Origin: a virus
Reading direction: 5' to 3' (one strand)
IMG/VR virus record: IMGVR_UViG_3300036466_000089
Span: 1 to 38,015 of that record
Length of the DNA: 38,015 nucleotides
The notes beneath the pieces were generated by a model. That model did not search any database and was not told the DNA's origin. It saw nothing but the letters and a program-made list of their open reading frames with translations. A program made the translations under genes and the position numbers. This document shows, piece after piece, positions 416 to 38,015 of the stretch. Position 1 is the first letter of the stretch. Each line of letters opens with the position of its first letter.

Positions 416-416
416 T

Positions 417-1068: not shown

Positions 1069-1070
1069 AG

Positions 1071-19409: not shown

Positions 19410-20088
19410 TGGTGCCTTGCGCACTATCGGCGTGCTTGCCAGTGGGGAGCAGGCAAAGCCTTCTGAAGCACAGGATGCACTTCAATATGCAAAGCAGATG
19501 CTTGATAGTTGGAGTAATGAGGGCTTGCTTGTTCCCGCATTGACGCATGAGTCATTCACACTGAGCAGCAAGCGAACCTATACCATTGGTCCTGGTGGAG
19601 ACTTTGACACTGTTCGCCCCACTACCATTGAGAATGTGCGTATTCGTGATACCGGTAATCTTGAAACACCGGTAAGCATTGCCAGCTTGAACCTTTGGGC
19701 CAATATCAGCTTGAAGGATACGGTTGTAAATACGCCCGACTACGTTTACTACGAACCAGAATACCCACTTGGCCGCCTTGAGTTCAGTTGCATTCCTACA
19801 GCTGGAGATACACTGAAGTTGGTCACAACAAAGCCTATCACAGAGTTACCAGCACTCACTGAGTCTGTTCAGTTTCCACCAGGATACGACAAGGCCATTC
19901 GCCTTGGCTTGGCTATCGAACTTGCTCCAGAGTATGGCGTTGATGTTACGCCAGCAGTTGCAGCAGGCTTTCGGCAAGCAATCATGGTGCTGAAGCGGGT
20001 AAACAGCAAAACCCGCATGGGGACGGTTGAGGTTGACTCAGGATTGATTCGCAAGAATGGGTATGACATTAACCATGGGCCATTATGA
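19384..20088 (+). CDS. P22 gp4-like head-tail connector (tail accessory factor)
   Basis: The 234-residue protein starts MATTKQLIDGALRTIGVL, with the QDALQYAKQMLDSWSNEGLL helix, YTIGPGGDFDTVRPTTIENV and VQFPPGYDKAIRLGLAIELA, the layout of the P22 tail accessory factor family. It binds the portal ring after packaging and holds the tail hub. AGGAG precedes the ATG within the previous gene, and the gp10-like gene overlaps its stop. I could not judge whether the muramidase activity reported for P22 gp4 is present. Confidence 0.87.
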   Translation: MATTKQLIDGALRTIGVLASGEQAKPSEAQDALQYAKQMLDSWSNEGLLVPALTHESFTLSSKRTYTIGPGGDFDTVRPTTIENVRIRDTGNLETPVSIASLNLWANISLKDTVVNTPDYVYYEPEYPLGRLEFSCIPTAGDTLKLVTTKPITELPALTESVQFPPGYDKAIRLGLAIELAPEYGVDVTPAVAAGFRQAIMVLKRVNSKTRMGTVEVDSGLIRKNGYDINHGPL

Positions 20089-21473: not shown

Positions 21474-21933
21474 GGTAGAACCGCCACCAATGGCGGTACA
21501 GGTTGTTGACCCAAGAACAGGATACCCAACAAGGGCGCTTTCTGACTTCCTTCATAGGCTATGGGAGAGGTCAGGTGGCAATGATGATGCGAGCGATTTT
21601 ATAGTCAAGCTTATGACTGGCTTAAAGTCTCAGCCTTCAGTTAAGCCTGTGCAGCAGGATGGTCCAGGAGAGCAGGTTTTTCAAATTGGAGGAGGAGTAG
21701 GGCAGTATGAAATAAATGAGCTTATCGGCAGTGTCGTAGTTATGGCTATGCAATCAAAGTCAGACAATACTCAGCAATTGCTTGAAGCAATATTGTCAGT
21801 TGGCGTTATGGTTAACTCAATGACAAGATCGCATAGCAGTGAGATAGCTGAGCTAAAAAAAGAAATAGAGTCAGTAAGGGCCATGGTTTCGTCTATGGCT
21901 TTTGTTGGTACAAAAAGTTATTCAGGAATTTAG
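21460..21933 (+). CDS. Virion-region protein with C-terminal coiled coil; possible needle or hub accessory
   Basis: GTG 21460 is chosen because GCGGAGG (21448-21453 area) lies 6 bases upstream; ATG 21427 is inside gp10 without a site. The 157-residue product starts MAGIKVEPPPMAVQVVDPRT, a Pro-rich N-terminal segment, has ALSDFLHRLWER and ends with the helix IAELKKEIESVRAMVSSMAF. In P22 this position holds gp26, the trimeric tail needle; a coiled coil fits, but the protein is short and no needle motif was seen. Confidence 0.65.
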   Translation: MAGIKVEPPPMAVQVVDPRTGYPTRALSDFLHRLWERSGGNDDASDFIVKLMTGLKSQPSVKPVQQDGPGEQVFQIGGGVGQYEINELIGSVVVMAMQSKSDNTQQLLEAILSVGVMVNSMTRSHSSEIAELKKEIESVRAMVSSMAFVGTKSYSGI

Positions 21934-21942
21934 GAGAACAAT

Positions 21943-22287
21943 ATGCAAGCCGTACCAGTACAGATTATTGAGCCGCAAGCGATAAGCGATACATTAACAC
22001 CTTATTATGCAAGCCCGGCAAGCAAGAAAACGATTATCAGCAAATTAACTTTTACAAACCATGGTGCAGATGCTGAAGCAATAGATGTTCATATCGTCCC
22101 TTCTGGCGATTCAGCTACTGATGCAAACAAGGTTGTAAGTGCAAAGCTTGTTGATGCAAATGAGGCGTGGCCAGCATACCAGCTTGAAGGTCAGATCTTA
22201 AAGCCTGGTGATGCAATTCATTGCAAGACAGGCACCGCATCTAGCACAGATATTGTTGTTATGGGCTCAGGCGTAGAGGTGTTTTAA
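21943..22287 (+). CDS. Beta-rich small structural protein, 114 residues
   Basis: The product alternates short strands (AVPVQIIEPQAI, KTIISKLTFTNHG, IDVHIVPSGD, GDAIHCKTGTASSTDIVVMG), an Ig-like or jelly-roll pattern often seen in capsid-decoration or tail accessory proteins. AGGAG precedes ATG 21943. The next gene starts within its stop codon. No family name can be given with confidence. Confidence 0.65.
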   Translation: MQAVPVQIIEPQAISDTLTPYYASPASKKTIISKLTFTNHGADAEAIDVHIVPSGDSATDANKVVSAKLVDANEAWPAYQLEGQILKPGDAIHCKTGTASSTDIVVMGSGVEVF

Positions 22288-22781
22288 TGGATGATCTAAC
22301 ACCGGCGCAGGTCCACCAGCTATTGGCAGAGCAGGTAAACGAAAAGATTGAAGCCATGGAAGAATTCATGCTTGAGCATGAGCAGGTTGAAATGCCAGTT
22401 GAGCACCGCTTTGTGAATGGCATGTATGCGCGTGAGATAACCATTCCAAAGGGCACCCTATTAACCGGTAGAGTTCACAAGTTTGGCTATGTGGATATTA
22501 TGCTGAGCGGCGATATTACAGTTGCAACGCCAGATGGAGTTAAGCGGTTGACCGGGGTGAATATCATGGAAGGTGTGCCAGGTCGCAAGCGTGCTGGATA
22601 TGCTCACGAAGATACGCGGTGGATTACTGTGCATAAGACAGATGCCACAAGCCCTGAAGGCATTGAAGATATTTTAACGGTATTTAGCATGGCGCAATTC
22701 CAGGAGTTACCGCCTGGCGAGCGTGCAGCACTACCAAATGAACAGGAGAATGAGTCATGTCAGTTGTTGCAGCAGCAGTAG
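22287..22781 (+). CDS. Cupin-fold-like phage protein
   Basis: The 164-residue protein has an N-terminal helix (AEQVNEKIEAMEEFMLEHEQ), then VNGMYAREITIPKGTLLTGR, HKFGYVDIMLSGDITVATPDG and GVPGRKRAGYAHEDTRWITV, a double-stranded beta-helix (cupin-like) order. Such proteins occur in virion operons, possibly as decoration or head-tail accessory proteins. It overlaps the next gene by 25 bases. The histidine positions do not clearly form a cupin metal site. Confidence 0.65.
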   Translation: MDDLTPAQVHQLLAEQVNEKIEAMEEFMLEHEQVEMPVEHRFVNGMYAREITIPKGTLLTGRVHKFGYVDIMLSGDITVATPDGVKRLTGVNIMEGVPGRKRAGYAHEDTRWITVHKTDATSPEGIEDILTVFSMAQFQELPPGERAALPNEQENESCQLLQQQ

Positions 22782-23437
22782 TTGGTAGCGCCGTTGTTGG
22801 CGCATACTCAGCAAACCAGTCAAGCAAGGCACAGTCAAAGGCTTCACAGAGGGCCAGTGATGCTCAGGTGCAGGCGAACCGAGAAACCATTGAATTTCAG
22901 CGTGAAGTGTTTGACCAGCAGCGCGAAGATAATGCGCCTTGGCGTGAAATTGGTACTGAGGCCCTTGGTCAGCTTCAGCGTGGCATTGCTTCAGGGAAAT
23001 TCGACCCAAGCAACTTTCGCTTTGAAGAAGATCCTGGTTATCAATTCAGACTAAGTGAAGGTGTCAACGCCTTGGATAAGAGCGCAGCAGCAAGAGGTAT
23101 GTTGCAATCAGGCGCACAACAAAAAGCACTTACCCGGTTCGGACAAGACTTTGCCAGCAATGAGTATGCAAACGCCTATGCGCGCAATGCTGGCCAGAAG
23201 GTGACAAACTTCAATCAGCTTGCATCATTGTCAAATGTTGGTCAGGTAGCGAACCAGGCGGATGCTAATGCGCGCACAAATATGGCTAATCAAGTCACGC
23301 AAAGCACGCTGGCAACTGGCAATGCAATTGCTCAAAACTATATGAATCAAGGAAATATTAGGTCGAGCGAGATTAATGCTTATAACAATATTGCACAGCA
23401 AGGAATTACAAATTGGCTGTCTTTTAAGGGGGTTTAA
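22757..23437 (+). CDS. DNA ejection / transfer protein (gp7-position, N-terminal hydrophobic helix)
   Basis: The 226-residue protein starts with a hydrophobic helix (MSVVAAAVVGSAVVGAYSA), followed by QREVFDQQREDNAPWREIG (about 49-67), GYQFRLSEGVNALDKSAAARG and a long Asn/Gln/Ala-rich helical tail. The NAPWREIG and LSEGVNALDKSAAARG motifs are typical of phage DNA-transfer proteins. In P22-like phages three pilot proteins (gp7, gp20, gp16) are encoded in this order here and are injected with the DNA. AGGAG precedes ATG 22757 within the previous gene. Confidence 0.78.
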   Translation: MSVVAAAVVGSAVVGAYSANQSSKAQSKASQRASDAQVQANRETIEFQREVFDQQREDNAPWREIGTEALGQLQRGIASGKFDPSNFRFEEDPGYQFRLSEGVNALDKSAAARGMLQSGAQQKALTRFGQDFASNEYANAYARNAGQKVTNFNQLASLSNVGQVANQADANARTNMANQVTQSTLATGNAIAQNYMNQGNIRSSEINAYNNIAQQGITNWLSFKGV

Positions 23438-23439
23438 CA

Positions 23440-24333
23440 ATGGCCACAGCAACGCCGTATGGAATAAATTTAGGCGCTATATATGCTGAAAACGAACGGC
23501 TGAAAGCGGCTAAGCAGTCACGCGATAACAACGCGTTAATTATGGACTGGAAGAAAGAGGACCGCGAGGCAGCGCGCCAGCGAGGTAACGCTCTTGCTGG
23601 TTTGCGCTCAAAGGCGTCAGCTGGTGATCCTCAGGCTATGCAGCAGCTGAACGCCTTTGACCCTGAAGAAGCTAAAAAGATGCTTGAGTCACTTAGCAAG
23701 ATGGATGAGCGCCAGCGCAAACAGACCCAGGAAAACATTGATGCGGTTGGCAAGATGTCAGCCTATGTGCTTCAGTCTGAAAATCCTGAACAGGCATATC
23801 AGCTTGCCAGGCAAAGCGTATCACCAGAGCTCGCAGCAAAGATGCCTGAGCAATACGATCCTAACTTTCTGCAAATGCAGCTTGCCAGAGCTCGCCAAGT
23901 TGATGAGTTGCTACAAAACCCTGAACGCATGACGTTTGGCACAGAGGACCGATTGTACAAGGATGGACGCGTTATCGAACGCACAACAAGTAGCCAAGAA
24001 CTTGACCGTCAGACAAGCCGGCAGAACGCATTAACGCGTGCCAGCGGTGATGGAGGCTTGAAGTCAGCTGATGAATCATTGATGTATCGCCAGGCTGGTG
24101 AGTTGCTTGGTGGTTTGTTTGACCAGCAGGGGAATCTACAAAACCTTGACCCGGCCACACGCGGCAAGGTTCAGTCTATAGCAACTGAAGCGGCTAAGAT
24201 TTATAGCCAAGGTGGCGTTACTCGCTCGCAAGCTGTAACACAAGCAGCGAGAAAGCTTGGTATTCAGGTTCAAGATTTGGGGCAAAGTGGTAATATAGAT
24301 CGCAACAAATTACTTGAAATGTATTCACAGTGA
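23440..24333 (+). CDS. Second ejection protein (gp20-position), helical and Gln/Ala-rich
   Basis: The 297-residue product is almost entirely helical: YGINLGAIYAENERLKAAKQ at the N-terminus, GNALAGLRSKASAGDPQAMQ (about 50-69), repeated Gln-rich helices and a C-terminal DRNKLLEMYSQ. Sequence is typical of phage internal or ejection proteins. It starts two bases after the previous stop with AAGGGGG upstream. The gene order places it where P22 gp20 stands; no sequence motif was recognised. Confidence 0.7.
   Translation: MATATPYGINLGAIYAENERLKAAKQSRDNNALIMDWKKEDREAARQRGNALAGLRSKASAGDPQAMQQLNAFDPEEAKKMLESLSKMDERQRKQTQENIDAVGKMSAYVLQSENPEQAYQLARQSVSPELAAKMPEQYDPNFLQMQLARARQVDELLQNPERMTFGTEDRLYKDGRVIERTTSSQELDRQTSRQNALTRASGDGGLKSADESLMYRQAGELLGGLFDQQGNLQNLDPATRGKVQSIATEAAKIYSQGGVTRSQAVTQAARKLGIQVQDLGQSGNIDRNKLLEMYSQ
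23520..23536. repeat. ACGCGA-N5-ACGCGT phased pair, site 6
   Basis: ACGCGA (23520) and ACGCGT (23531), 11 bp apart, near the start of the second ejection gene; AGTC precedes the left copy, as at sites 2 and 5. Confidence 0.55.
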
Positions 24334-24340: not shown

Positions 24341-27300
24341 ATGGCAGAGAACCAACAACCTACAAAGGACCAGTTGCTAACAGCACTTGAGAAAGCACAC
24401 CTTTCAGGGGATACCCAGGGCGCCAAGGAGTTGGCCGCCTGGCACAATGAGCTTTACGGACCAAAGCCAGAACAAGAACAGCCTGGACTTATTGACCGGG
24501 CTAAGTCTTTTTTCACTTCCGATGAACAGCCTGAAGTAGATGGCTTCACCGGCGCAATGCAGAAGGCGCCACCAGAGTACGATAGCTTTGTAACCGCCAC
24601 TGGTAAAGCTGTTCGCAATGTTCCTGAGCGTTTTCAGCAATCAGCAGCCGGCCTCATTCAGATGCTTGGCGAGGATATGGGGCAGGAACGTGAGCGCCAT
24701 ATCGCTATTGTTTCTAACCGTCTTGGTATTACGCCAGGCGATTACAAGTTGCTGGCATGGGCTGGAAATGAAGGTCTTGTTGATCCTAAGACACCTATTC
24801 CTGAAGCGCTTGATTACATTAAGCGCAATGTGACTGGCTCACTCAATGAGCAGCAACTGAAGCAGGTTGCTGATATGGGCATTATCAACCCTGATGAGAT
24901 AGCCGGCTTTGCCAAATATTGGCGTGAAGAAACACAGAAAACCATGGAGCCAGTAAACGCTGAGCCAGGAAGCGCCGCTTATTATGGTAGTGCGGCGATC
25001 GGTAGCGTTGCTGAAATGGGGCCTGCATTGCTTGGCAGTATCCTAACTCGCAATCCAAGTGTAGGTATGCGCTTGATGGCCGGCCAGGTAGGTGGTCAAT
25101 CGTATGCTGAAGGCCGTGAGCAAGGATTATCGCCTGATGAAGCGCAATTCTACGCAGTAGCCAATGCGGCAGCAGAAGCAATCCCTGAGTATATTCCGCT
25201 TAGTGTGATTATGAAGCCAGGCCAGAACTTCTTTAAGCGCGTGCTTAAAGGTGCCTTGGCAGAATCAGCCCAGGAAGTGCTAACCGAGGCCATTCAAACC
25301 GGACTTGATCAGCAGATGATTAACCCGGATATGACTTGGGCAGAAGCGCGCCAGCGCCTAATTGATGCCGGTATTATCGGTGGCCTTGCTGGTCCTATGA
25401 TGAGCGGTGTTGCTCATCCAGTCGTTAAGGCTCAAGAGAAGATTGACCAGGCACTTAATGCGCCAGAGCGCCAGCTTGGTATTGCGCTTAATCAGCAGGT
25501 TGAGGCGACTCAGTTTGCACCGGCAGAGCAGGCAGCAGCGCAGGCTTTTGATCCAGCAAATGCACAGCAGCAACAGCAGCCAGTACAGCGTAAAAGCATG
25601 GCAGAGCTTGTGGCTGAAAAGCTTGAGCAGCGTGGGGTTAAGCCGGCGCCAGTGGTTGACTACGCACCGAAGCAGCAAGCAATGCCTGAGAATATTGATG
25701 TGCCGCTTGAGGTTCCTACTCAGGAAGTGGTTGTTGAAGAACAAGCTAAGGAGCAGGTCAAAGATGAGCCCAAGCAAGAAGCGCCAACTGAAGAACAAGC
25801 GAAAGATGAAGCGCAACCAACGGATGCGGCGCCAGTCTATGGCGAAGGGGCTGAGAGAGTTCAACACACAACCAAGCGCGGAAAGGAATTAACTGGCGTC
25901 ATTGATCGTGAAATGACACTGGACCAGGCCAAAGAGATCGACCCTTACGCCTTCAAAAAGGATGGTGGTGTTTTCATTCGTGATAACCGCATTCAGGAGT
26001 ACAACCAGAAGCGGAGTGAAGAAAATGCAAGAGTGGATACAGCAGGCGTTGAACGACAAGGTGATCAGCAGCAGCGAAGCCAAGAGCCTGGACGAGTACC
26101 TGAGCCAGCACAGCAACAGCAGCAACCTAGTGATATTGCCTCAGAGCCTGGAAAGCGCGGCTCAGAGAATATTCCTATGGGAGATACCGCTGAGCGAATT
26201 GACGATGCACTGACCCAAGATGATCTTGCCAAGCTAAGGGATCAGGTAAAAGCGAAAATAAAAGAGCAGGGAACAGTTACTGACGACCGCCTTGAGGAAA
26301 AGTTGCGAGGAATTGAAGCGGCCATTGGTGAGCAAGGTGGCAGTATAGGTAGTGGCCGAAGGGTAGAAACTGAAAGCGGTGATATGTTGGAAACTATCGG
26401 GCAAATAAGAAGTGATATGCCAGATGGCGCCATGGTTACTGTTAGAAAGAATCCCGACACAATAGGCGAGCGAAAGTTAAGAATTAGTGTTGGTGAGTTG
26501 AGAGGTTTAATTAACCAGGAGCAAACCAATGAGCCTACAAGTGTGGAGGCTAAGAAAACTCCAACTGGCATTATCAAAAAAGGCCGCGATGAAAAATACG
26601 ATATTGATGTAGAGCTGCGCAAGGATGGCGAAGGCTACACGATTGTAGATAGCGACCCGAATACCAAAGACAAGCGCATTAGCACCGGCATGGGTGGCGT
26701 TTACAAGAACGATCAGATTCTCAACCGAGAGGGCGAGTTTGTATCGCCTCGCGATATTGTTCAGGCCGGTAGCGCTACTCTTGATAAGCAGCCGTTCAAA
26801 GGCACAAAAGATGAGATGGCGCAGGCCGCAAAGCTTGTTGCTGAGATAGAATATGAAAGAAGCGTAGGCAATAACGCCAGGGTTGAAGAATTAGAGAGCC
26901 AGTTAATCGACCTGGTATCTGGTAGGAGAAAAGCAGATGAACCTGAACAATTGGGCGAGCAAGGCGCAGAAACACTGGCAGGAGTTCCAGCCGAACAAGT
27001 ACCAGGCACTGAAGAAACAGGGGACGCTGGACTTGGCGCTGAAGCAGGCAGCAGAACAGACGCTGGCAGAAGTGAGCGAGTTGGAGAATCAGGGCTATCA
27101 ACCGGACGAGGCGTTCCAGATGGTCAGGGAGAATTACCTGTTTCCACCAGCGGAGCAGAGCGAACCGGACGAGGCGAGCAACGCGGCACCGATGTACCAG
27201 GAAGCGTTGCAGATGAAAAGCCGAGTGATGCAGGCCGACCAGTATCAAGAGGGGATGCAGAGTTAATCCAGGCTGAGGAAAAGGCGGCAGAAGAAGCGCC

Positions 27301-30300
27301 GGCGCCAGTTGGTGAAACAACTCAGCAGGCAGTTAGTGCAGATAATCGCCCGGCCAAGATGTTTACCATTACGCCAGATATGGGAATTGGTGAAGGTGGC
27401 CAGAAAACTAAATTCAAGAACAACCTTGAAGCAATCAAGATCCTGAAGTCTCTTGAGGCTGAAGGGCGCCAGGCAACGCCAGAAGAACAGCAAGCGCTTG
27501 CGCGTTATGTTGGTTGGGGCGGTATTCCTCAAGCGTTCTATGGTGATGCAGGTAAAGTATCAAAAGGATGGGAGAAAGAGGCGGCACAGCTTAAAGAGTT
27601 ACTTACCGATGCTGAGTATGATGCAGCGCGCCGAAGCACGCAGGATGCCCACTACACAAGCCAGGAGATTGTTACTTCAATCTGGAAGGCTGTTAAGGAT
27701 ATGGGTTTTACTGGTGGCCGAGTGCTTGAGCCTTCAGTTGGTACTGGTAACTTTTTAGGGATGATGCCGGCAGGTGTTCGAGGAAAAAGCCAGATCACCG
27801 GCGTAGAGCTTGATCATATTACAGGCGGGATTGCTTCACACCTTTACCCAGGCGCAAACATTAAAACGCCAATGGGCTTTCAAGACTTCACTATGCCTGA
27901 TGGTTACTTTGATCTGGCAATAGGGAACCCGCCATTTGGGAGCCAGAAGCTATATGACGGTAAGCGCAAAGACTTATCTAAGTTCAGCATTCACAACTAC
28001 TTCTTTGCAAAAAGCCTGGATGGCCTGAAGCCTGGCGGCGTACTTGCAATGGTTGTATCTAACAGCCTTATGGATGGTCAAAGCAATCAGGCAGCGCGTG
28101 AGTACATGGCTAATCGTGCAGACTTCATTGGCGCGGTACGATTGCCTAATAACGCATTCCTGAAGAATGCAGGCACAGAAGTTACCACTGACATTGTTTT
28201 CCTTCAGAAGCGAGAGGAAGGCACGCCGCGTAAAGGTCCTTCATGGAAGCGTACTGAATCAGTGAAAGACGCCAACGGCATTGAAACACCACTGAATGAA
28301 TATTTTGTAAAGAATCCCGACATGATGCTTGGTGAATGGGGTGCATACGGCTCAATGTATGGACCTAATGACCCGGCGCTTGTTGCGCGTGAAGGTCAGG
28401 ACACTGGCGCATTGTTGCGTGAGGCATTGGCTAAGTTACCAAAAGGGATTATGGCAGAGTCAAAAGCGGCGCCGGCAAAAGAAGAAGTGAAGCTATCCAC
28501 CAGCGTTGATAACGTCAAAGTTGGTAGCATGTTCATTGATGGCGGCAAGGTGATGGTTCGCCAGGATAATGAGCTTGGTAGTATTCAGGCTGAGCCGGTT
28601 GAGTTTGCCAGCGACAAAGCGCGCCAGCGCGTTGAGGGCATGATCAAGGTTCGTGATGTGTTCACAGACTTGAGGAAGGCCCAGCTTACTGAAGGCGTAA
28701 AAGATGCTGCGCTTGACGCGTTGCGCACGCGTCTTAATCGTGAGTATGACGCGTTTGTTAAGGCGCATGGTCCAATAAACTCAGATGCCAACAAGCGCTT
28801 ATTCCGTGATGATCCTACCTGGCCTCAGATTGCAGCATTGGAAGAATCGTTCGATAAAGGCATTACGCCTGCAATGGCAAAGAAAACCGGCGAGCAATCG
28901 CGTAAGCCAAGCGCAAGCAAGGCGGCAATTTTCTTTAAGCGCACTCAGTCACCATATAAAGCGCCAACCAAAGCGGCAACTGCCAAGGATGCAATGGCGG
29001 CAAGCCTATCAGAGTATGGCGCCATTGATATGGATTACATGGCGAAGCTTTACAACAAAACACCAGGATATATTGCCAATGAGCTTGGTGATCTTGTGTA
29101 TGAGGTTGAGCCTGGCCGATTTGAAACGCGTGACCAGTATCTGAGCGGCAATGTTAAGCAGAAGCTTTCCCAGGCAAGGCAGCTTGCCAAGGCAGACAGC
29201 AAGTATAAGCGCAACGTCCAGGCTCTTGAGGCGGTACAGCCTGAAGATATTGAGGCCGTTGATATTGATGTTAAGCCAGGCGCTCATTGGTTGCCGCGTG
29301 AAGATATGAAGTCATTTGTTGATCATGTGCTTGGCAATGAAAGCGGCAAGGCTGTTTATATCCCTACCAATGCAAAATGGTCTATTGATGGCGTACCAAC
29401 TGAGGCGGCGCGTTCGCGTTGGGGTACTGACCGAGTTCAGGTTACTGACATTGTTGCAGCAGCTGCAAACCAAAAGCAGATTGTTGTGCGTGACCGTATT
29501 GACGAGAACACAACAAGAGTAAACGAAGCAGCTACCAATGCTGCTAATGAAAAGGTTGAGCGATTAAAAGCTGAGTTTCGCCGTTGGGTATGGCAGGACG
29601 ATGCGCGCCGTAGTCGGTTGACCAGAATCTATAACGACACATTTAACACCGATCGCTTGCGTGAGTTTGATGGTTCGCACCTTACTTTCCCTGGAAAGGT
29701 CAGTGACGACATTATCAAGTTACGCCCACACCAAGCCAATGCAGTTTGGCGTATCGTGCAGTCTGGCACAACCTTGCTTGATCACGTTGTAGGTGCTGGT
29801 AAGACGTTCACTATGATTGCTGGCGCTATGGAAATGCGCCGCATGGGCAGAGCTAAAAAGCCTATGTTTGTTGTTCCTAATCACCTTGTTGGTCAGTGGG
29901 CAGAGGACTTCACCAAGCTTTACCCTGGCGCTAATGTGCTGGCGGCAACCAAGAAAGACTTTGAGAAAGGCAACCGCAAGCGCCTATTTGCGCGTATTGC
30001 CACCGGTGATTGGGATGCTGTTATTGTGGCTCACTCATCATTCGGTAAAGTGGAAATGGATAAGGAGTTCCAGGAGCGATTTATCAATCAGCAGATCCGT
30101 GACATTGATGAGGCTATCCAAAATATCCGGGCCCAGGATGGGCAGAAGTCACGAAGCATTAAGCAGATTGAGAAGCAGAAAGAGCGCCTTCAGGAAAAGC
30201 TGAAGAAGCTGTTTGATGCAGAAAACAAGGATGACAACCTAACCTTTGGTGAGCTTGGTGTTGATGCTTTATTCCTGGATGAAGCGCATGAGTTTAAAAA

Positions 30301-33300
30301 CCTTGGCTTTGCCACCAGTATGACCCGCGTTGCTGGTCTTGGTAATCCGCAAGGAAGCCAGAAGGCGGCAGACCTGTTTATGAAAACTCAGTTTGTCCTG
30401 GAAAAGACTGGTGGCAATAACGTGGTGTTTGCTACCGGTACGCCGATCAGTAATACCATGGCGGAAATGTACACCATGCAGCGCTATCTGGATTATCAGA
30501 CGCTACAGGACCAAGGTATTGCACACTTTGACGCGTGGGCGCGCATGTATGGCGAAGTTGTTACTGATTGGGAATTATCACCTTCAGGAAGTTACAAGCT
30601 AAATAGCCGCTTCAGTAAGTTTGTGAATATCCCTGAGCTCATGCAGCGCTACCTATCGTTTGGTGATGTTATCAACCGTGATGACATTAACCGACAGTTG
30701 GCCGCCCAGGGTAAGCGCCTACCAGTACCAAAGGTTAAAGGCGGCAAGCCTAAGAATGTTGTGGTTAATCGCAGTGATGATCAGGCCGCCTATATCGGCG
30801 AACCTATCACCGATGAGAATGGCCGCGAGTCATACCCGGAAGGTAGCCTTGTTTGGCGCGCTGAGCACTTACCTAAAAAGCCTGAAAAGGGCGCGGATAA
30901 CATGCTGAAGATTATGAGTGACGCCAGAAAGGCAGCACTTGATATGCGCATGATTGATCCGGCCATGTATGGTGACTACGAAGGCAGCAAGGTAAACCAG
31001 GCGGCAGACAACATTAAGCGCATTTACGACCAGTGGAGTGCAGACAAAGGCGCGCAACTGGTATTCATTGACCTGAGTACACCGAAAGGAGCTAAAGCAA
31101 AAGAGGCGGCAAGAATCCGCGATCTGATTGAAAAAGCAGACAATGGTGATGAGCGCGCACAGGATGAGCTCGACAAGATGAGCCCTGATGAATTATCAGC
31201 GCTTGACGGTGATTTCAGTGTTTACGATGACTTGCGCCAAAAGCTGATCAATAAGGGCATTCCTGAGCAGGAGATAGCATTTATTCACGATGCCAATACA
31301 GAGCTTCAGAAAGAAGAATTGTTTGGCAAGGTTCGTAGTGGCCGTATCCGTGTGCTATTTGGCTCTACCGCCAAGATGGGTGCAGGCATGAACGTGCAAG
31401 ATCGTCTTGTTGCACTACACCACATGGATGCACCATGGCGACCTTCAGACCTTGAGCAGCGTGAAGGCCGTATTATTCGCCAGGGTAACAAGTTGTATGA
31501 GCGCGATCCTGATGGGTTTGAGGTTGAAATTAATCGCTATGCAACCAAGCAAACGCTTGATAGCCGTATGTGGCAGACCATTGAAACCAAGGCGCGATTC
31601 ATTGAGCAGGTTCGCAAGGGCAATACTAAGACACGAGAAATTGAGGACGTTGGCGGCGAGGCAAGTAATGCAGCTGAAATGAAAGCAGCCTCAAGTGGTA
31701 ATCCGCTTATCCTGGAAGAAATGGACTTGCGTCAGAAAATCAGAAAGCTTGAACAGCTTGAAGATGAGCATGACCGCGAGCAGTTCCGTATTCGTGACCA
31801 GGTTCGCCGCCTGAAACTACGCATTGAAACCGGCAAGGATAGAATGCTGAAGTTTACGCGTGATGCCAAAAAAGCAGAAAAAGCGCCAAAAGACTTCTCT
31901 ATCACAATTAACAGCGGAAAGTACGACAAGCACAAGGAGGCTGGTCAGGCATTGCTGGCGGCAGCAAATAAGATGGCTGATGCAGGGCAGGAAACAAAGG
32001 CTATTGGCGAGTATGCCGGCTTTAAGTTGCGCCTGGATAATATCAGCGGTGCCGAGTTCGTGATCACCATAGAGGGTGAGCAGGAATATCAGGTAGACAT
32101 TCCAGATATTGCTGAAACTGATCCTACCGGTTTAGCTATGCGAATTACCAACACAGTGAAGCGCATTAGTGCAGATGCCAAGAATGAAGCTGAGCTTATC
32201 AAGCAAGCTGAGCGAGATATACCAGACCTTGAAGGGCAGATTGCTGATTGGTCACAGGCTGATGAGCTCGCAAAGGTTAAGGCGCGCCATGCCTTGGTTA
32301 TTGCAGAGCTGAAACCAAAGAACAAGGACCAGGAGGAGATTGAACAGGACGGTACAAGCGCCATGATGTATAACGCTGGCGCTGATGTTCCAATGCCTAA
32401 CTGGCGTCCAACATATCGCCAGGCTGGCGTGCCAAAGCGCCCTGAAGGTGATGAGTTTGCTATTGGCGATCGTCAAGTTAAGTTGAAGCCAGAGGAACAA
32501 CCAACGCGCCGCGAGGGTGTTCGCGTTATGGTTGAGGATGTTATAGGTCCAAGACTTTACCAGGGAAAGGTAAAAGGCAAGTCAAAGCTTGGCTTCTACC
32601 GCAAGAATAACAGTGAAGTTCGCGTTGCCAATTACGATGATGTTGAGGTTATGGCGCATGAAATGGCGCACTATCTTGATATGCACTACCGCTACAACAA
32701 GCGCTTTACTAGGGCATACAAAGATACCAAGTATCGTGATGAGGTTTCCGGCCTGAGCTACACCAGTCAAAAGAACCTGAAGTACAAGGAAGGCTTTGCT
32801 GAGTTTGTGCGCCTATGGCTTACAAACTATGCAGAGGCAAAGGCGGCGGCTCCATTGTTTACTCAACGCTTTGAGCAAGTGCTCGCAGAGGATTCAACAC
32901 TCAATAAGAAGATGGTTAAGCTTCAGGATGAAATGCACCGGTGGTACCTACAAGGTGCGCGTGCTCAGTTGCGTGCCAAGTCTGGTAAAGAGTTAAGCCA
33001 GTCTCAGCAGATCATTCAGTACATGCAGTCATATCCACTTGAGCGCTATCGCCAGGAAGTGATTGATAAGATCCATGCAGCCAAGGTTGTTGAGCGCACA
33101 CTTCATGGTGAGGTTCGTGATGCGGCATTAAGCCCATTCAAGCAATTCCAGCTTATAAATGGTGCAGAGTCGTTACATGAGGCAATCCTGAAAGATGGCA
33201 CGCCTTCACTTGCTGAAGATGGAACCTTTGAGTTTAACGGAAAGGGGCTTAACCAGGTGTTTTGGCCGGTATCAAAACATGGTTGGAAGCGTTTTGACCT

Positions 33301-35674
33301 GCTTATGGATTACTTCAAGGCTCGCCGGGCCAATGAGCTTATGAAGCAGGGCCGTGAAAGGCTGTTCACAAAGCAAGAGATTGAGGCCGGGTTAAAGCTT
33401 GGTGTTACATACCCTGAGTTCCGTGATGTGTTCAAGGAATATCAGGAGTTCAACAAGCGAATGCTGGACTTCTACGAGCAGATGGGCCTGATTGATGGGA
33501 AGCAGAAGCAAGCCTTTGCTGATGCCAACAAAAACTATGTACCATTCCACCGGGTAATAGAACGCCTTGAAGATGGTGATCAGGCTGGAACAACGTCAAT
33601 CGGCAAGCGCCTGAGTGGTGGCACTCAGAACGTGCGTGACATTGCTGAAAACATTGTTGAGGGCCTTTACTCAAATATCCGGGCGGCATTGATTGCCAGG
33701 GCCAAGCAGACGCTATACCGGGACATTATGACTAGCCAGGATGGTTCCTTGTTTGCAGTTAAGCTATCGCCAGATAGCAAGCTGGTTAAGGTTGAACAAA
33801 CTCAGATGGCGGCAAAAATTGCTGAAGCCATGGCTGATGTTGGCCTAACTGTAAGCAAAGATGGAATGATTATGGCCGGCGATCCTGATGCGCAGATCAC
33901 TGATGTTGATGATATTGCCCAGGCCCTTGAGTCTAACCCTGATCTGCTTAACTTCTGGACCTTTGGGCACAAGCCAACGACAGCAGAAACATACGTTGAT
34001 AGTGCCATCATTGATGGTAAGCGTACCTGGTTTGAGGTTCGCAATCCGTTGCTGGTGGATATGCTAACAGGTATGAGAGGCTTTAAGTCTGGCGCGTTGC
34101 TTAATGCCATGTTCCGCGTGAAGAACCTGCAAACTCGCACTGTAACGTCAATGCTTCAGTTCCTTGGTCCAAACGCTGTGCGCGATACGCTGAGCGCCTT
34201 TGTGATCAGTAAAAACAAGTTCATTCCTGTATGGGATACCTTGATTGGTATGGGGCACGCCATATTCCACACCAAGCTTTACCGTGAGTTTCGTTTGCAT
34301 GGTGGCGGCTATGGTACCCGTATCGAGGCAAGAACAGAGGAAACCAGAAAGCGCAGGCAGCTTGATCTTCCAAGCCGCAATATGTGGGATACCGCCGCTA
34401 AGTTTTTAGCAGGGTATGACCGCTTTGCTAGTGCATTTGAGTATGGTAGCCGCCTTGGTGATTATCGCCGTGGCCGCCAGGCTGGAAAGAATGCGCTTGA
34501 GGCTGCATGGGAGGCCAGGGAAGTTGCAACAGACTTTAGCAAGATGGGGCGCAATGAGTTGTGGGCCAAGTTCCTTCGTACCGTTCCGTTTATGAATGCC
34601 GGCATTCAGGGCCTGGACAAAACAGCGCGAGAGATATTTGAATTGCGCGGTGAAATGAAGGGTAGCAACCTGGCAAAACTTGATGATGCTAAGGTGCGAT
34701 TCCTGGCTGCTGGTGGCGTGCTCACTCTTATGACAGTGATCTTGTGGTTGCTGAATGAGGATGATGACCGGTACCAGGCATTGACGCCAGACCAAAAGGC
34801 GCGCTTCTGGTGGATCTTCCTTCCTGGTGCAGAGAAGCCTCTTAAAATTCCGCGTCCATACGATATAGGGCATTTGTTCGCAACCATACCAGAAGTTAGC
34901 CTTGACTATATCAAGGAGCGTGATGGTAAAGAGGCAGCGCAGACGCTGGCATGGACCTTTGCTAATACGCTTGGTGTTGGTGATTACCCTGGCATATTCC
35001 AGCCAATGATTGAGGTGGCCAGGAATAAGAAGTTTACAGGCGCGCCTATCGTCCCTGAAAGGTTGATGCACGTTCCTAATGAGTATCAATTCACTGATCG
35101 CACGCCGCAGCTGTACCGCAATCTTGGTGAAGCGCTTGGAGTGTCACCATTGGTGGCAGAGCATTACATGAAAGGTTACTTGCGTTACGTTGAGGCGTAT
35201 ATCTCAGATGGAAGTGAAGCCTTGCTATGGAATGAAAAAGAGTGGGGGCCGCGTCCATTCGTTAAAGAACCGATTGACTACCTAACCTATCAATTCCAGG
35301 GGCAGCGTGTTCCTTATCGAACAAAATGGACTGAAGGTTATTTTGAACTCAAGAAAAAGGCAGCCGGCGCCAAGTCTGCATTTGAACTACTGACCGCACA
35401 GGCAATACGCGATCAGCAGCCAATGAAAGACTTTTCAGCCGACAAAGTTAACCAGTTGCTTATCAGCATGGATAACGCCTTTAGACAGATTGATGGCGCA
35501 TTCAAGGACCAGGAAACTGTGCTTGCAGCAATCAAGTACAACCCGGACCTAACCAGGGATGAGAAGGAAAGGAGAATAGAAAATTGGTACCAGCAGAAGA
35601 ACAACGCTTTAGCGCAGTTCTATGACCAGGCCAATAAGGCATTGGAGCAAGTTGAAAGCGAGCTTTCCCAATAG
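24341..35674 (+). CDS. Giant polyvalent protein, 3,777 residues: ejection-like N-terminus, N6-adenine methylase, SF2 helicase, zincin, membrane-associated C-terminus
   Basis: Domains by approximate residue: 1-380 ejection-like with hydrophobic segments (about 210-235 and 340-361); 383-620 and 866-976 low-complexity linkers; 1000-1065 with ALARYVGWGGIP; 1130-1293 methylase with PSVGTGNF and NPPFG (N1196); 1792-2400 SF2 helicase with VVGAGKT (1816-1822), DEAH (1980-1983), ATGTPISN and QREGRIIRQGN; 2773-2777 zincin HEMAH; about 2970-3777 a part like the LPD38 region with TM near 3453-3470. The methylase-helicase core resembles phage P1 DarB and other polyvalent proteins. Its place after two ejection genes equals that of P22 gp16, so it may be injected to shield incoming DNA from host defence; this is inference. 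ATG 24341 follows GAGGCGGGG. Confidence 0.88.
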   Translation: MAENQQPTKDQLLTALEKAHLSGDTQGAKELAAWHNELYGPKPEQEQPGLIDRAKSFFTSDEQPEVDGFTGAMQKAPPEYDSFVTATGKAVRNVPERFQQSAAGLIQMLGEDMGQERERHIAIVSNRLGITPGDYKLLAWAGNEGLVDPKTPIPEALDYIKRNVTGSLNEQQLKQVADMGIINPDEIAGFAKYWREETQKTMEPVNAEPGSAAYYGSAAIGSVAEMGPALLGSILTRNPSVGMRLMAGQVGGQSYAEGREQGLSPDEAQFYAVANAAAEAIPEYIPLSVIMKPGQNFFKRVLKGALAESAQEVLTEAIQTGLDQQMINPDMTWAEARQRLIDAGIIGGLAGPMMSGVAHPVVKAQEKIDQALNAPERQLGIALNQQVEATQFAPAEQAAAQAFDPANAQQQQQPVQRKSMAELVAEKLEQRGVKPAPVVDYAPKQQAMPENIDVPLEVPTQEVVVEEQAKEQVKDEPKQEAPTEEQAKDEAQPTDAAPVYGEGAERVQHTTKRGKELTGVIDREMTLDQAKEIDPYAFKKDGGVFIRDNRIQEYNQKRSEENARVDTAGVERQGDQQQRSQEPGRVPEPAQQQQQPSDIASEPGKRGSENIPMGDTAERIDDALTQDDLAKLRDQVKAKIKEQGTVTDDRLEEKLRGIEAAIGEQGGSIGSGRRVETESGDMLETIGQIRSDMPDGAMVTVRKNPDTIGERKLRISVGELRGLINQEQTNEPTSVEAKKTPTGIIKKGRDEKYDIDVELRKDGEGYTIVDSDPNTKDKRISTGMGGVYKNDQILNREGEFVSPRDIVQAGSATLDKQPFKGTKDEMAQAAKLVAEIEYERSVGNNARVEELESQLIDLVSGRRKADEPEQLGEQGAETLAGVPAEQVPGTEETGDAGLGAEAGSRTDAGRSERVGESGLSTGRGVPDGQGELPVSTSGAERTGRGEQRGTDVPGSVADEKPSDAGRPVSRGDAELIQAEEKAAEEAPAPVGETTQQAVSADNRPAKMFTITPDMGIGEGGQKTKFKNNLEAIKILKSLEAEGRQATPEEQQALARYVGWGGIPQAFYGDAGKVSKGWEKEAAQLKELLTDAEYDAARRSTQDAHYTSQEIVTSIWKAVKDMGFTGGRVLEPSVGTGNFLGMMPAGVRGKSQITGVELDHITGGIASHLYPGANIKTPMGFQDFTMPDGYFDLAIGNPPFGSQKLYDGKRKDLSKFSIHNYFFAKSLDGLKPGGVLAMVVSNSLMDGQSNQAAREYMANRADFIGAVRLPNNAFLKNAGTEVTTDIVFLQKREEGTPRKGPSWKRTESVKDANGIETPLNEYFVKNPDMMLGEWGAYGSMYGPNDPALVAREGQDTGALLREALAKLPKGIMAESKAAPAKEEVKLSTSVDNVKVGSMFIDGGKVMVRQDNELGSIQAEPVEFASDKARQRVEGMIKVRDVFTDLRKAQLTEGVKDAALDALRTRLNREYDAFVKAHGPINSDANKRLFRDDPTWPQIAALEESFDKGITPAMAKKTGEQSRKPSASKAAIFFKRTQSPYKAPTKAATAKDAMAASLSEYGAIDMDYMAKLYNKTPGYIANELGDLVYEVEPGRFETRDQYLSGNVKQKLSQARQLAKADSKYKRNVQALEAVQPEDIEAVDIDVKPGAHWLPREDMKSFVDHVLGNESGKAVYIPTNAKWSIDGVPTEAARSRWGTDRVQVTDIVAAAANQKQIVVRDRIDENTTRVNEAATNAANEKVERLKAEFRRWVWQDDARRSRLTRIYNDTFNTDRLREFDGSHLTFPGKVSDDIIKLRPHQANAVWRIVQSGTTLLDHVVGAGKTFTMIAGAMEMRRMGRAKKPMFVVPNHLVGQWAEDFTKLYPGANVLAATKKDFEKGNRKRLFARIATGDWDAVIVAHSSFGKVEMDKEFQERFINQQIRDIDEAIQNIRAQDGQKSRSIKQIEKQKERLQEKLKKLFDAENKDDNLTFGELGVDALFLDEAHEFKNLGFATSMTRVAGLGNPQGSQKAADLFMKTQFVLEKTGGNNVVFATGTPISNTMAEMYTMQRYLDYQTLQDQGIAHFDAWARMYGEVVTDWELSPSGSYKLNSRFSKFVNIPELMQRYLSFGDVINRDDINRQLAAQGKRLPVPKVKGGKPKNVVVNRSDDQAAYIGEPITDENGRESYPEGSLVWRAEHLPKKPEKGADNMLKIMSDARKAALDMRMIDPAMYGDYEGSKVNQAADNIKRIYDQWSADKGAQLVFIDLSTPKGAKAKEAARIRDLIEKADNGDERAQDELDKMSPDELSALDGDFSVYDDLRQKLINKGIPEQEIAFIHDANTELQKEELFGKVRSGRIRVLFGSTAKMGAGMNVQDRLVALHHMDAPWRPSDLEQREGRIIRQGNKLYERDPDGFEVEINRYATKQTLDSRMWQTIETKARFIEQVRKGNTKTREIEDVGGEASNAAEMKAASSGNPLILEEMDLRQKIRKLEQLEDEHDREQFRIRDQVRRLKLRIETGKDRMLKFTRDAKKAEKAPKDFSITINSGKYDKHKEAGQALLAAANKMADAGQETKAIGEYAGFKLRLDNISGAEFVITIEGEQEYQVDIPDIAETDPTGLAMRITNTVKRISADAKNEAELIKQAERDIPDLEGQIADWSQADELAKVKARHALVIAELKPKNKDQEEIEQDGTSAMMYNAGADVPMPNWRPTYRQAGVPKRPEGDEFAIGDRQVKLKPEEQPTRREGVRVMVEDVIGPRLYQGKVKGKSKLGFYRKNNSEVRVANYDDVEVMAHEMAHYLDMHYRYNKRFTRAYKDTKYRDEVSGLSYTSQKNLKYKEGFAEFVRLWLTNYAEAKAAAPLFTQRFEQVLAEDSTLNKKMVKLQDEMHRWYLQGARAQLRAKSGKELSQSQQIIQYMQSYPLERYRQEVIDKIHAAKVVERTLHGEVRDAALSPFKQFQLINGAESLHEAILKDGTPSLAEDGTFEFNGKGLNQVFWPVSKHGWKRFDLLMDYFKARRANELMKQGRERLFTKQEIEAGLKLGVTYPEFRDVFKEYQEFNKRMLDFYEQMGLIDGKQKQAFADANKNYVPFHRVIERLEDGDQAGTTSIGKRLSGGTQNVRDIAENIVEGLYSNIRAALIARAKQTLYRDIMTSQDGSLFAVKLSPDSKLVKVEQTQMAAKIAEAMADVGLTVSKDGMIMAGDPDAQITDVDDIAQALESNPDLLNFWTFGHKPTTAETYVDSAIIDGKRTWFEVRNPLLVDMLTGMRGFKSGALLNAMFRVKNLQTRTVTSMLQFLGPNAVRDTLSAFVISKNKFIPVWDTLIGMGHAIFHTKLYREFRLHGGGYGTRIEARTEETRKRRQLDLPSRNMWDTAAKFLAGYDRFASAFEYGSRLGDYRRGRQAGKNALEAAWEAREVATDFSKMGRNELWAKFLRTVPFMNAGIQGLDKTAREIFELRGEMKGSNLAKLDDAKVRFLAAGGVLTLMTVILWLLNEDDDRYQALTPDQKARFWWIFLPGAEKPLKIPRPYDIGHLFATIPEVSLDYIKERDGKEAAQTLAWTFANTLGVGDYPGIFQPMIEVARNKKFTGAPIVPERLMHVPNEYQFTDRTPQLYRNLGEALGVSPLVAEHYMKGYLRYVEAYISDGSEALLWNEKEWGPRPFVKEPIDYLTYQFQGQRVPYRTKWTEGYFELKKKAAGAKSAFELLTAQAIRDQQPMKDFSADKVNQLLISMDNAFRQIDGAFKDQETVLAAIKYNPDLTRDEKERRIENWYQQKNNALAQFYDQANKALEQVESELSQ
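26025..26213 (+). CDS. Nested small gene 1 in the +1 frame of the giant gene
   Basis: ATG 26025 has GCGGAG (GGAG 26013-26016) 8 bases upstream and opens a 62-residue frame. The product has a plausible fold-like sequence: a helix MQEWIQQALNDKVISSSEAK, then LVILPQSLESAAQRIFLWEI and an end SELTMH. In contrast the giant frame over the same bases is Gln/Glu/Arg/Pro-rich and featureless. Short proteins with an xxAAQRxxLWE-type segment are known to me from phage virion operons, without function. The overlap suggests that the small gene is the older coding layer. Confidence 0.65.
   Translation: MQEWIQQALNDKVISSSEAKSLDEYLSQHSNSSNLVILPQSLESAAQRIFLWEIPLSELTMH
26937..27266 (+). CDS. Nested small gene 2 in the +1 frame of the giant gene
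   Basis: ATG 26937 has TAGGAG (AGGAG 26924-26928) with an ideal 8-base spacer. The 109-residue product starts MNLNNWASKAQKHWQEFQP and continues NKYQALKKQGTLDLALKQAA, ENQGYQPDEAFQMVRENYLF with a Met/Gln-rich tail. The pattern W..KA..HW...P..Y..LK..GTL..AL..AAE..............G....EA...VRE.YLF is one I recall from small, separately annotated phage proteins. The giant frame over these bases is Gly/Glu/Arg/Ser/Thr-rich filler. Function unknown; a helical, acidic protein. Confidence 0.8.
   Translation: MNLNNWASKAQKHWQEFQPNKYQALKKQGTLDLALKQAAEQTLAEVSELENQGYQPDEAFQMVRENYLFPPAEQSEPDEASNAAPMYQEALQMKSRVMQADQYQEGMQS
28716..28732. repeat. ACGCGT-N5-ACGCGT phased pair, site 7
   Basis: Two perfect copies at 28716 and 28727, 11 bp apart, inside the giant gene between methylase and helicase coding parts. 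A further single ACGCGT lies close downstream (28749 area). Confidence 0.65.
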
Positions 35675-35717: not shown

Positions 35718-38015
35718 ATGGCAGTCTCAATGATTGGCCCAAAGTTTTACGCTTGGGACCGCAACGGCAAACCTCTGGCCTTCGGTAAGATATACACATA
35801 CCAGGCTAGAACAAATGCGCCAAAACCAACTTATCAATCAGAGGATCAGGTTGCTGAAAACACCAACCCTGTGATCCTTAACGGTGAGGGATACGCCAAT
35901 ATTTACCTTGATGGCTCTTATAAAATTGTCCTTAAAGATAAAGATGAAAACGAAATTTGGAGCGCAGATCCAGTATCAGCAGCTCAGCCGGATGAATGGG
36001 TTAATTGCCTAAGCGCAACCTATGTAAGCCCTACTGAGTTCAAAGTTAATGGTAACTTCGCCTCAGTTTATGATCCTGGTCGCCGTGTTCGCGTTGATAG
36101 CAATGCAGCGCAATACGAATACTCGACAATTATCACCTCAGTTTTTGCTGGTGGTGAAACTACGGTGACGCTTCTTGATGCCATTGTTACAACTGGCATT
36201 CAAGAGGTTTGCGTTTCAATTGTCGGGCATCAGTCTCGCGGTGATGGTCAGATCCTCAGCTTTGGAAACCTTGAAGACGCTGTTGAATATGCGCTTCTTC
36301 GCAAGGGTGATGCCATTGACATAAAAGAGCGTCTTACTGGTAAAGGCGGCGGCTCTCTTTGGGATGTTGTTGAAACATCTTCCGTAACTGTTAACGGCTT
36401 TAATGTGGTGCAGTCAAACGGTAATCCATTATTGTCATTAAAGCTTCGCGAGGGTAACAATCGCAACGCCCTTGCTTGGGGTTTCGATCCGGGGCTTGAC
36501 GCTGATAATGACGATGTTTGCGGCGCGTTCTTCGCTGACATTAACGATGGTGATCGGGTTGATTTTGACGGGAATATGTTCCGGGTGTTTGCAAATACAA
36601 CTGGCATTCCTTCAAGCGGCGCAAATCCGGCAACCGATAGAGCACAAGATCTTGATAAGATGGCATTCCTTAACGGTAAGAAGAATATTAACTTTTCGCC
36701 GGGCGGTCTTTATGCTGCCAACCAAGGAACAGCACCAGCCAAGAATTACTTCCCTTCTACCCTTTACCTGAAGGCGTGTGAGGGCATTCACTTTGAGCGT
36801 GGATCTATCTTTGAAGGCAAGGGTGGATCTTGGGGTGACTCTGACGCTTCAGTAAGCTTGTCGAAAGATGATCGCCAAGACTTCCTTGGTCAGAATGGTG
36901 GTCACGCAATTGTTACCTGTCGATGCAAGCGCATTACTGGTACACCAACAACTCGTTTGTGTGGTTCTGTTGCGCCTTTCTATGCGTCAAGTACGCAAGG
37001 TGTTGATCTTACCGATCCATTTAGCAACTCGGCCTCTCTTGGTTATGCGTCTTATGCTTTTGATGCTTGGGTTGGTAATGTTGCTGCTACAGGGCTTGAT
37101 AATTACCACGGAAACATAAGTAACCCACAAGCGTATAAAGAAACAATTTTACGCCGTGAAGATGGGCTTCAAGCTGGCTCTTCTATTTACAGCGGTAAAG
37201 GTGGTGTTTTAACTGAAGATGCTGACGTTGAAGTTGCAACTCAGGGTGGTTATATCGCAGATATGTACGGAAACGGTTCAGCAAAAGAACTAGGTTATGC
37301 GTTTGGCGCTGGTGTTCATTCATTGTGTACTAACGTTGGTGCTATTGTCCGTAACTGTCAGGAAGTTGTTTATACTAACGTTTCAGCTAATGGTACAGCA
37401 GAATGTCGCGTTACTGATGTTGATGCTGTCGTTGGCTTGACTGGAGTGATGATTGATAACCAATCATTCGGAGTGTGTAAGGCCACATTAAAAGGTAAGG
37501 TGCGAGTTAACAACAGCCGGGTATGGGCTGGTGAGGTTGAAACCCTTGGAAATACCAGTCTTGTCGCATGTATGAAACCGGCATCAAATGCCTTTGTCAC
37601 CATCGACTGTGATGCTGCACCGGATGACAACCCACCAGCAGGTAAAAGTGGTAGCATCTTCGCTTTGATCAGCAACAAGAACGAGGCGACTTATGGCGGT
37701 GTCATCATTGAAGGCGGTGAATACGTAATTAACGGATACCTTATCCGATCTGAAGGATGGGGTGGCGCTATCGCTGGCACTAAGCAAGGCCTTGTTATAA
37801 AACCAGGTGTTCGCATTGAGTGTTTGAGTACGGCGGCAACTGATGGCTTTATTCAGTATCGAAACAAGTCTTCTGGTGGTGGGGTGTTTACCTATATTTA
37901 TCACGACATTGAAGGCGCTGATATTACTGTTCAAGGGTTTCGCTCATTGAACTCTGGTTATCAGATCTTTGGTGGTGGGCTGGTTGAACTTCAGTTGTTT
38001 CCCAAGCAGCTTGGA
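35718..38015 (+). CDS. Tail spike/fibre protein, N-terminal and central part (runs off the window)
   Basis: 766 codons are open from ATG 35718 to the last base; with 128-415 the protein has about 861 residues. The N-terminus (MAVSMIGPKFYAWDRNGKPL, then FGKIYTYQARTNAPKPTYQS and NGEGYANIYLDGSYKIVL) is the head-binding module common to podovirus spikes and fibres. After about residue 170 the sequence is Gly/Asn/Asp/Val-rich with repeated short strands, suggesting a right-handed beta-helix that binds and possibly cleaves host polysaccharide. No catalytic residues can be assigned. It is transcribed last, before the 56-residue gene and the terminator at 608-639. AATAGGAG sits 7 bases upstream. Confidence 0.87.
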   Translation, partial: MAVSMIGPKFYAWDRNGKPLAFGKIYTYQARTNAPKPTYQSEDQVAENTNPVILNGEGYANIYLDGSYKIVLKDKDENEIWSADPVSAAQPDEWVNCLSATYVSPTEFKVNGNFASVYDPGRRVRVDSNAAQYEYSTIITSVFAGGETTVTLLDAIVTTGIQEVCVSIVGHQSRGDGQILSFGNLEDAVEYALLRKGDAIDIKERLTGKGGGSLWDVVETSSVTVNGFNVVQSNGNPLLSLKLREGNNRNALAWGFDPGLDADNDDVCGAFFADINDGDRVDFDGNMFRVFANTTGIPSSGANPATDRAQDLDKMAFLNGKKNINFSPGGLYAANQGTAPAKNYFPSTLYLKACEGIHFERGSIFEGKGGSWGDSDASVSLSKDDRQDFLGQNGGHAIVTCRCKRITGTPTTRLCGSVAPFYASSTQGVDLTDPFSNSASLGYASYAFDAWVGNVAATGLDNYHGNISNPQAYKETILRREDGLQAGSSIYSGKGGVLTEDADVEVATQGGYIADMYGNGSAKELGYAFGAGVHSLCTNVGAIVRNCQEVVYTNVSANGTAECRVTDVDAVVGLTGVMIDNQSFGVCKATLKGKVRVNNSRVWAGEVETLGNTSLVACMKPASNAFVTIDCDAAPDDNPPAGKSGSIFALISNKNEATYGGVIIEGGEYVINGYLIRSEGWGGAIAGTKQGLVIKPGVRIECLSTAATDGFIQYRNKSSGGGVFTYIYHDIEGADITVQGFRSLNSGYQIFGGGLVELQLFPKQLG
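37889..38015. repeat. Right copy of the 127-bp end redundancy
   Basis: Identical to bases 1-127. Both copies keep the same tail-spike reading frame (codon boundary after 127 and after 38015), showing that the contig closes on itself. Confidence 0.97.

Follow-up and report, generated by a model that had tools for sequence, protein, structure and literature searches.

The window analysed here is the whole of IMG/VR virus record IMGVR_UViG_3300036466_000089, a stretch of 38,015 bases. A 127-base direct terminal repeat is present at 1-127 and 37889-38015, and the record is therefore a complete, circularly permuted genome of 37,888 bp; the tailspike gene spans both ends of the record. The closest annotated relative is Vibrio phage VvAW1, with TerL and coat proteins >99% identical to those of the window phage. 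Within 20085-22287 and 35718-38015, identity to VvAW1 is 55% for the head-closure protein, 49% for the product of the gene at 21943 and 46% for the tailspike over its first 84 aa only, and the genes around them are 89-99% identical. Such strong divergence amid similar neighbours indicates that tail/host-range genes were swapped. A separate Dam-type N6-adenine methylase (PF05869) is encoded in the early region at 1663-2196 on the minus strand; it is unmatched in VvAW1 and has a 27% match in X14. The window phage thus carries two unrelated adenine methylases, this one and that of the giant protein described below.

The locus under study has the gene order head closure (20085), jelly-roll adhesin (22287), gene-7-like gene (22757), gene-20 slot (23440), giant gene and tailspike. 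The gene-7-like gene (22757..23437, plus strand; phrog_598, 8e-57) encodes a DNA ejection protein and is the first ejection gene. The second, the gene-20-slot gene (23440..24333, plus strand; phrog_36852), has homologues in BA3, X14 and the cargo-free locus L030, which is described below. The giant gene (24341..35674) accounts for 29.9% of the 37,888-bp genome, and it and all of its parts lie on the plus strand.

The giant frame is uninterrupted from the ATG at 24341 to the stop at 35674 (3,777 aa). An alternative TTG start is possible 27 bases 5' of this ATG; the annotated and near-identical VvAW1 homologue, gp01, begins at the corresponding ATG. Near-identical proteins in VvAW1 and in L015 and L016 rule out a frameshift or assembly artefact. 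The first-pass annotation had placed methylase, helicase and zincin motifs and hydrophobic segments in one frame, which is borne out by translation, Pfam and hydropathy: NPPF (aa 1196), VVGAGKT (aa 1816-1822), DEAH (aa 1980) and HEMAH (aa 2773) share the frame, and hydropathy gives one strong hydrophobic segment (aa 3449-3474) and two weaker ones (aa 217-236 and 340-358). Pfam matches over the curated cut-offs were Eco57I methylase, ResIII/SNF2, Helicase_C and LPD38. The central 1,900 residues carry the PHROGs label 'DarB-like antirestriction' (2652 bits), in agreement with the DarB-type methylase-helicase module that had been proposed. With several unrelated enzyme domains, a zincin and an LPD domain in one chain, and with its gene among virion/late genes, the giant has the make-up of a polyvalent protein.

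The protein begins with a helical hairpin (aa 8-40; 24362..24460), a candidate packaging/ejection signal found by HMM, tblastn and gene order. It is followed by a hydrophobic/amphipathic region (aa 191-360; 24911..25420), likely a membrane or translocation part, which is conserved in the P22-like siblings and the 60-kb phages introduced below, and by a low-complexity linker (aa 361-860; 25421..26920), the fastest-evolving part of the chain. VvAW1 lacks a 117-residue segment of this linker (aa 737-853, about 26549-26899 of the window). The central part, termed here the cargo cassette (aa 866-2664; 26936..32332), is a DarB-type methyltransferase-SNF2 dyad. It contains the core of a gamma-class N6-adenine methyltransferase (aa 1102-1299; 27644..28237; Pfam Eco57I 3.1e-11; NPPF at 27926-27937) and an SNF2/SF2 translocase (aa 1790-2450; 29708..31690; Pfam ResIII, SNF2 and Helicase_C) with Walker A at 29786-29806, DEAH at 30278-30289 and motif VI at 31457-31489. 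The C-terminal part, termed the chassis (aa 2667-3777; 32339..35671), is common to P22-like siblings with other or no cargo. It comprises a zincin domain (aa 2722-2854; 32504..32902; HEMAH 32657-32671, EGFAE 32789-32803), the strong hydrophobic segment, which is the single transmembrane-like helix of the chassis (aa 3449-3474; 34685..34762; hydropathy 1.97), and an LPD38 domain (aa 3475-3640; 34763..35260; PF18857, 1.1e-39).

The methylase precedes the SNF2-type ATPase in one chain, which is the arrangement of DarB-like proteins. Residues N1196, P1198, F1199, G1136 and E1156 of the methylase and K1821, T1822, D1980, E1981, T2034, P2035, R2377 and R2380 of the ATPase were at 100% in 73 dyad relatives, across which the median column agrees with the window in 48% of sequences. 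Around Walker A and motif V-VI, identity reaches 79-88% in relatives of 50-68% identity. The methylase core matched TaqI in the PDB weakly (0.007). The least conserved stretches of the dyad are its ends, aa 1361-1460 and aa 1661-1760, and no hypervariable target-recognition segment stood out when one was sought there. Between the giant and its VvAW1 homologue, which are about 97% identical in amino acids at a dS of about 0.5-1.1, dN/dS was 0.015 for the methylase, 0.007 for the helicase, 0.023 for the zincin, 0.015 for the LPD38 part and 0.089 for the linker. The catalytic residues are under strong purifying selection and both enzymes look functional; a decayed enzyme is ruled out by the invariant residues and the low dN/dS. 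Loss of catalytic residues in relatives had been set beforehand as the result that would count against the first reading of this gene, and they are kept in the 73 cargo relatives and in 44 relatives of the C-terminal part.

A BLASTP map of the giant shows that its parts have different histories. The P22-like 37-kb phages (BA3, X14, Vibrio 1.183.O, 1.211.A, 41E34.2 and FGH) have giants that align strongly with residues 2667-3777 and weakly with residues 1-500, and the siblings' own middles, about aa 500-1540, are unmatched to the window giant. With the giants of the 60-kb phages PEp14, SopranoGao and Itty13 it is the middle that aligns (aa 866-2664; 59-62% identity), and their C-parts are unmatched. 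The right-hand boundary is sharp: in all three, cargo similarity stops at 2663-2664, and chassis similarity starts at 2667-2684. The core genes give the reverse picture: against X14, identity is 75% for TerL, 59% for the coat and 50% for the portal, and against PEp14 it is 23% for TerL and 22% for the portal, and the coat is undetectable. High cargo identity to PEp14 yet distant core genes, and the reverse for X14, show that the cassette was transferred between otherwise unrelated phages. On these alignments the giant is a chimera, with an N-terminus and a C-terminal third that are P22-like and a methylase-helicase cassette that has moved between phages. The first-pass annotation overlooked that, by the same comparisons, the methylase-helicase part comes from another lineage of phages and can be exchanged as a cassette. 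Recombination extends to the N-terminal hydrophobic region, which is 58% identical to that of Itty13.

IMG/VR was scanned with the C-terminal part, which gave 64 loci. In these the C-part measures approximately 1,000-1,100 residues, and complete genes add about 250 to 3,000 other residues before it. The cargo found on the chassis is the dyad, a smaller methylase (X14 group), an SNF2 ATPase alone (L026, L029 and L047, which have no NPPF methylase motif), ART with methylase and ddrB-ParB, GNAT with methylase, GNAT, RadC, phage lysozyme, lytic transglycosylase or nothing recognisable. In L030, a single metagenomic contig, the C-part is 65% identical to that of the window, the coat is 76% identical and the gene order is unchanged; its giant has 1,617 aa and the zincin is its sole enzyme domain. 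L056, L057 and L064 are further cargo-poor examples, and in these the zincin is also invariant. Mapped on a tree of 48 C-parts, the cargo label requires a minimum of nine changes, and the dyad by itself four; the tree does not tell gain from loss. A cargo-free version and this number of changes along the chassis tree are taken to show, from sequence, that the chassis has a core role of its own.

Giants of other construction also occur. In L008 (Vibrio phage 1.232.O) and L013 (Skulduggery) the order is reversed, with the ATPase motif before the methylase motif, which is an independent assembly of the two activities; the 1.232.O giant is without a standard HExxH. In L010 (Pseudomonas phage Itty13) a giant frame of >4,000 aa on the minus strand, with a transglycosylase-like start and the dyad, crosses the record start, and three hypothetical genes are annotated on the strand opposite to it. 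The only match in 84,980 bacterial and archaeal genomes was L162, a contig binned to Chlorobiaceae, and this single match suggests that phages with such giants are mostly non-integrating. The L162 giant has at least 3,147 aa and is 53% identical over window aa 869-3768.

The dyad could be an entry motor, its SNF2 translocase pulling the genome in, threading it inwards or stripping host proteins from it, as transcription does in T7 and N4, with methylation being secondary. This would fit with the ATPase being the most constrained part of the giant (both in dN/dS and in its Walker A and motif V-VI blocks), with the occurrence of SNF2-only cargo on the same chassis, and with N4 and T7 ejection proteins having been linked to DNA uptake (PMC12633501). 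We nevertheless regard it as doubtful: the methylase residues are just as invariant, many siblings (X14, BA3) have a methylase without a helicase, and phages with a cargo-free chassis enter without any such motor.

A tblastn search of 50,697 phage records was made with the first 40 residues of the giant. Besides VvAW1, it matched P22-like Salmonella and Vibrio phages at the N-termini of their gene-16-type proteins (E 0.03-0.6), and the sole other matches, which were weaker, were to ribonucleotide reductase. In all four of the records that were opened, the match lies at residues 4-28 of the third ejection gene and the gene order is identical. An HMM built from window-type proteins only was then run over 7,909 frames; it matches the start of each of the four gene-16 proteins (E 1.6e-7 to 9e-6), and its remaining matches are giants' N-termini only. 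As these four loci were chosen via the N-terminal motif, the unbiased evidence is the location of the match at the gene-16 N-terminus, not its score. The match spans about the first 33 residues, and tblastn with the N-part and C-part of the giant found no homology to the bodies of gene-16 proteins. Together with gene order, this common motif upholds the earlier placing of the giant in the position of the third P22 ejection gene. The two helices of the hairpin are the best-predicted part of an AF2 model of the N-terminus, which was of low confidence (pLDDT 54) and was excluded from the fold search. In the siblings, the N-terminal hydrophobic region matches the N-terminal part of a virion RNA polymerase family (phrog_2206, E 8.5e-5). 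A second type of N-terminal motif, FRxxNPxYxDxxDDQLVxALHxKYY, is present on L023, L027, L095, L161 and the X14 group, and also on the giant of Ruegeria phage 45A6. Three dyad giants carry this motif, and from its distribution N-terminal signals are swapped independently of cargo.

It could be argued that the giant is not injected at all and has a late role in the methylation or remodelling of progeny DNA as this is replicated or packaged, with late expression alone accounting for its gene position. The separate Dam-type methylase implies that DNA methylation is useful to this phage in the cell. We consider such a role improbable in view of the gene-16 slot, the N-terminal motif and the exchange of cargo on a chassis with hydrophobic, ejection-type termini. 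Known dyad proteins are also found in virions: the homologous 4,515-aa giant of JC1 (gp69, DarB-like) gave 51 unique peptides in purified virions (PMC9144972), and P1 DarB is located in the head, with its N-terminal 30 residues being enough for packaging (PMC9024508).

The C-terminal part (aa 2660-3777) was modelled with AlphaFold at a pLDDT of 83. Foldseek with this model returned nothing from the PDB at E<=0.001. With VIA-align only the zincin domain was convincing, matching lethal-factor-type zincins with a middling Z of 7.1 over 127 residues and plasmid ArdC further down the list; the helical part was without a listed solved relative, and has many phage relatives in BFVD. EGFAE lies 44-48 residues downstream of HEMAH, and HExxH and EGFAE are invariant in the 44 C-terminal relatives, down to 17% identity. 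The hydrophobic helix is found at the equivalent place in BA3, X14, V1183, PTXU04 and others.

Two accounts of the zincin step alone were weighed. The zincin may be mainly self-processing, freeing the payload from the chassis after entry. Of 60 dyad giants, 41 have an HExxH after the dyad where 1.6 would be expected, the cargo/chassis boundary falls about 60-110 residues upstream of it, and self-processing is a general proposal of Iyer 2017. Set against these points, the remaining 19 dyad giants have no HExxH there, the cargo-free or cargo-poor L030, L056, L057 and L064 retain an invariant zincin, and the N4 virion RNA polymerase (vRNAP), with a similar domain, is packaged uncut; we therefore hold self-processing as the main function to be tentative. 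The first-pass annotation had suggested that the giant may act as pieces cut by its own zincin, and this is weakened as a sole explanation; because the zincin is invariant in cargo-free versions, releasing cargo cannot, on this evidence, be its only job. Secondly, the zincin could act as an effector on the host, cleaving an envelope or defence protein there once injected, as Iyer 2017 also allows. The active site is invariant whatever the cargo and the closest fold is that of secreted lethal-factor-type zincins, ahead of ArdC, but with the Z score only middling we find this rather unlikely.

From these observations, the giant is probably the third ejection protein of a P22-like podovirus, carried in the virion and bringing a methylase-translocase to the DNA as it enters, as a chassis with an interchangeable payload; its packaging, ejection, DNA target and protective effect, and the zincin substrate, are what we infer. 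The N-terminal hairpin would target the giant to the capsid or portal, and the hydrophobic N-terminal region and C-terminal helical part would join a trans-envelope conduit. The giant would exit the virion partly unfolded, either before the DNA or together with it. Once in the cytoplasm, the methyltransferase-SNF2 payload may load on the incoming linear DNA and travel along it, methylating it and/or clearing host proteins, so that this molecule would be protected from restriction-type defences. The zincin may process the chassis itself, or a conduit or host protein, after entry. Protection could come from methylation, from translocation or from a coating of the DNA. Methylation may not be the protective act, because P1 Dar protection acts in cis, with physical occlusion named as a hypothesis and the mechanism called unclear in a 2025 review (PMC12707154).

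DarB-like dyads, polyvalent proteins, the zincin and LPD38 are already described, and the VvAW1 copy is annotated. In the literature found, the P22-like chassis-cargo organisation, its cargo-free natural version, the cross-lineage dyad transfer and the N-terminal gene-16 link are undescribed. Genetic work on Dar-type protection of injected DNA reportedly dates from 1987. A handle on how this protection works is offered by natural cargo-plus and cargo-minus versions of one ejection protein in related small phages, with which domain swaps in laboratory phages could tell apart what the chassis, methylase, translocase and zincin each do. Were the chassis general, it would also be a means, evolved in nature, of delivering large enzymes into bacteria.

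Among known systems, the same gene in the same position is VvAW1 gp01 (YP_007518343.1), annotated as a DNA methylase/DarB-like antirestriction protein and about 97% identical in the N-part, cargo and C-part; no experimental study of it was found in the literature. The P22-like siblings (BA3, X14, Vibrio 1.183.O, 1.211.A and 41E34.2, and FGH) share the zincin and LPD38 part (37% identical over 96-98%), but their giants are of 2,631-2,740 aa and the middle is a different, smaller methylase cargo without a helicase. The gene-16 ejection proteins of Emek and Vibrio 1.067.O share the third-ejection slot and the first ~30 residues with the giant; in contrast to it they have about 640 aa and no enzyme, zincin or LPD38, and their bodies are unalignable. 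P22 itself injects gp7, gp20 and gp16, from which a conduit across the envelope is assembled; putative ejection proteins of very large size, Pavtok gp27 among them, have to be partly unfolded for the passage (PMC8402733). The giants of 60-kb podoviruses (Bcep22, JC1 gp69, PEp14, SopranoGao and Pavtok) have the same dyad in a large virion-linked protein encoded downstream of virion genes. Unlike the window, the SopranoGao giant has an N-terminal lytic transglycosylase and LPD39 in its C-part, and PEp14 has unrelated head genes. P1 DarB also has a methylase-helicase dyad, is a virion protein and gives DNA protection in cis, but only about 200 methylase residues align with the giant (tblastn, 31%); P1 has five further Dar proteins, and the LPD38 chassis was not seen there. 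Polyvalent proteins were described, and motor-driven methylation proposed, by Iyer 2017 (PMC5512222).

A parallel in layout is N4 gp50, the vRNAP, which is likewise a third ejection protein with an N-terminal membrane domain, an enzyme, an HExxH domain and a helical C-domain; it is a 3,500-residue polymerase with a lipid-binding N-domain (PMC12633501). The N4-like layout of the giant comes from the model and domain map, the membrane nature of its N-part being read from hydropathy alone, and its cargo is a methylase-translocase where that of gp50 is an RNA polymerase. With hhalign, the giant C-part matches the N4 C-domain in the zincin strand-helix only (P 0.0098; reversed control 0.61), and no significant sequence homology of the helical C-part was found, either to the N4 C-domain or to the LPD39 chassis, for which there were two colinear weak matches (P about 0.03). 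Descent from a common ancestor with the N4 C-domain is an appealing idea that sequence does not support. We consider it possible, if unlikely, that several podovirus lineages share one ancient third-ejection-protein chassis, with a membrane-active N-part, a zincin and a helical C-part, on which payloads were swapped: methylase-SNF2 dyads, lone methylases, SNF2 motors, acetyltransferase, ADP-ribosyltransferase, RadC, peptidoglycan hydrolases and the N4 virion RNA polymerase. If so, the unexplained C-terminal domain of the N4 enzyme would be chassis, not a part of the RNA polymerase.
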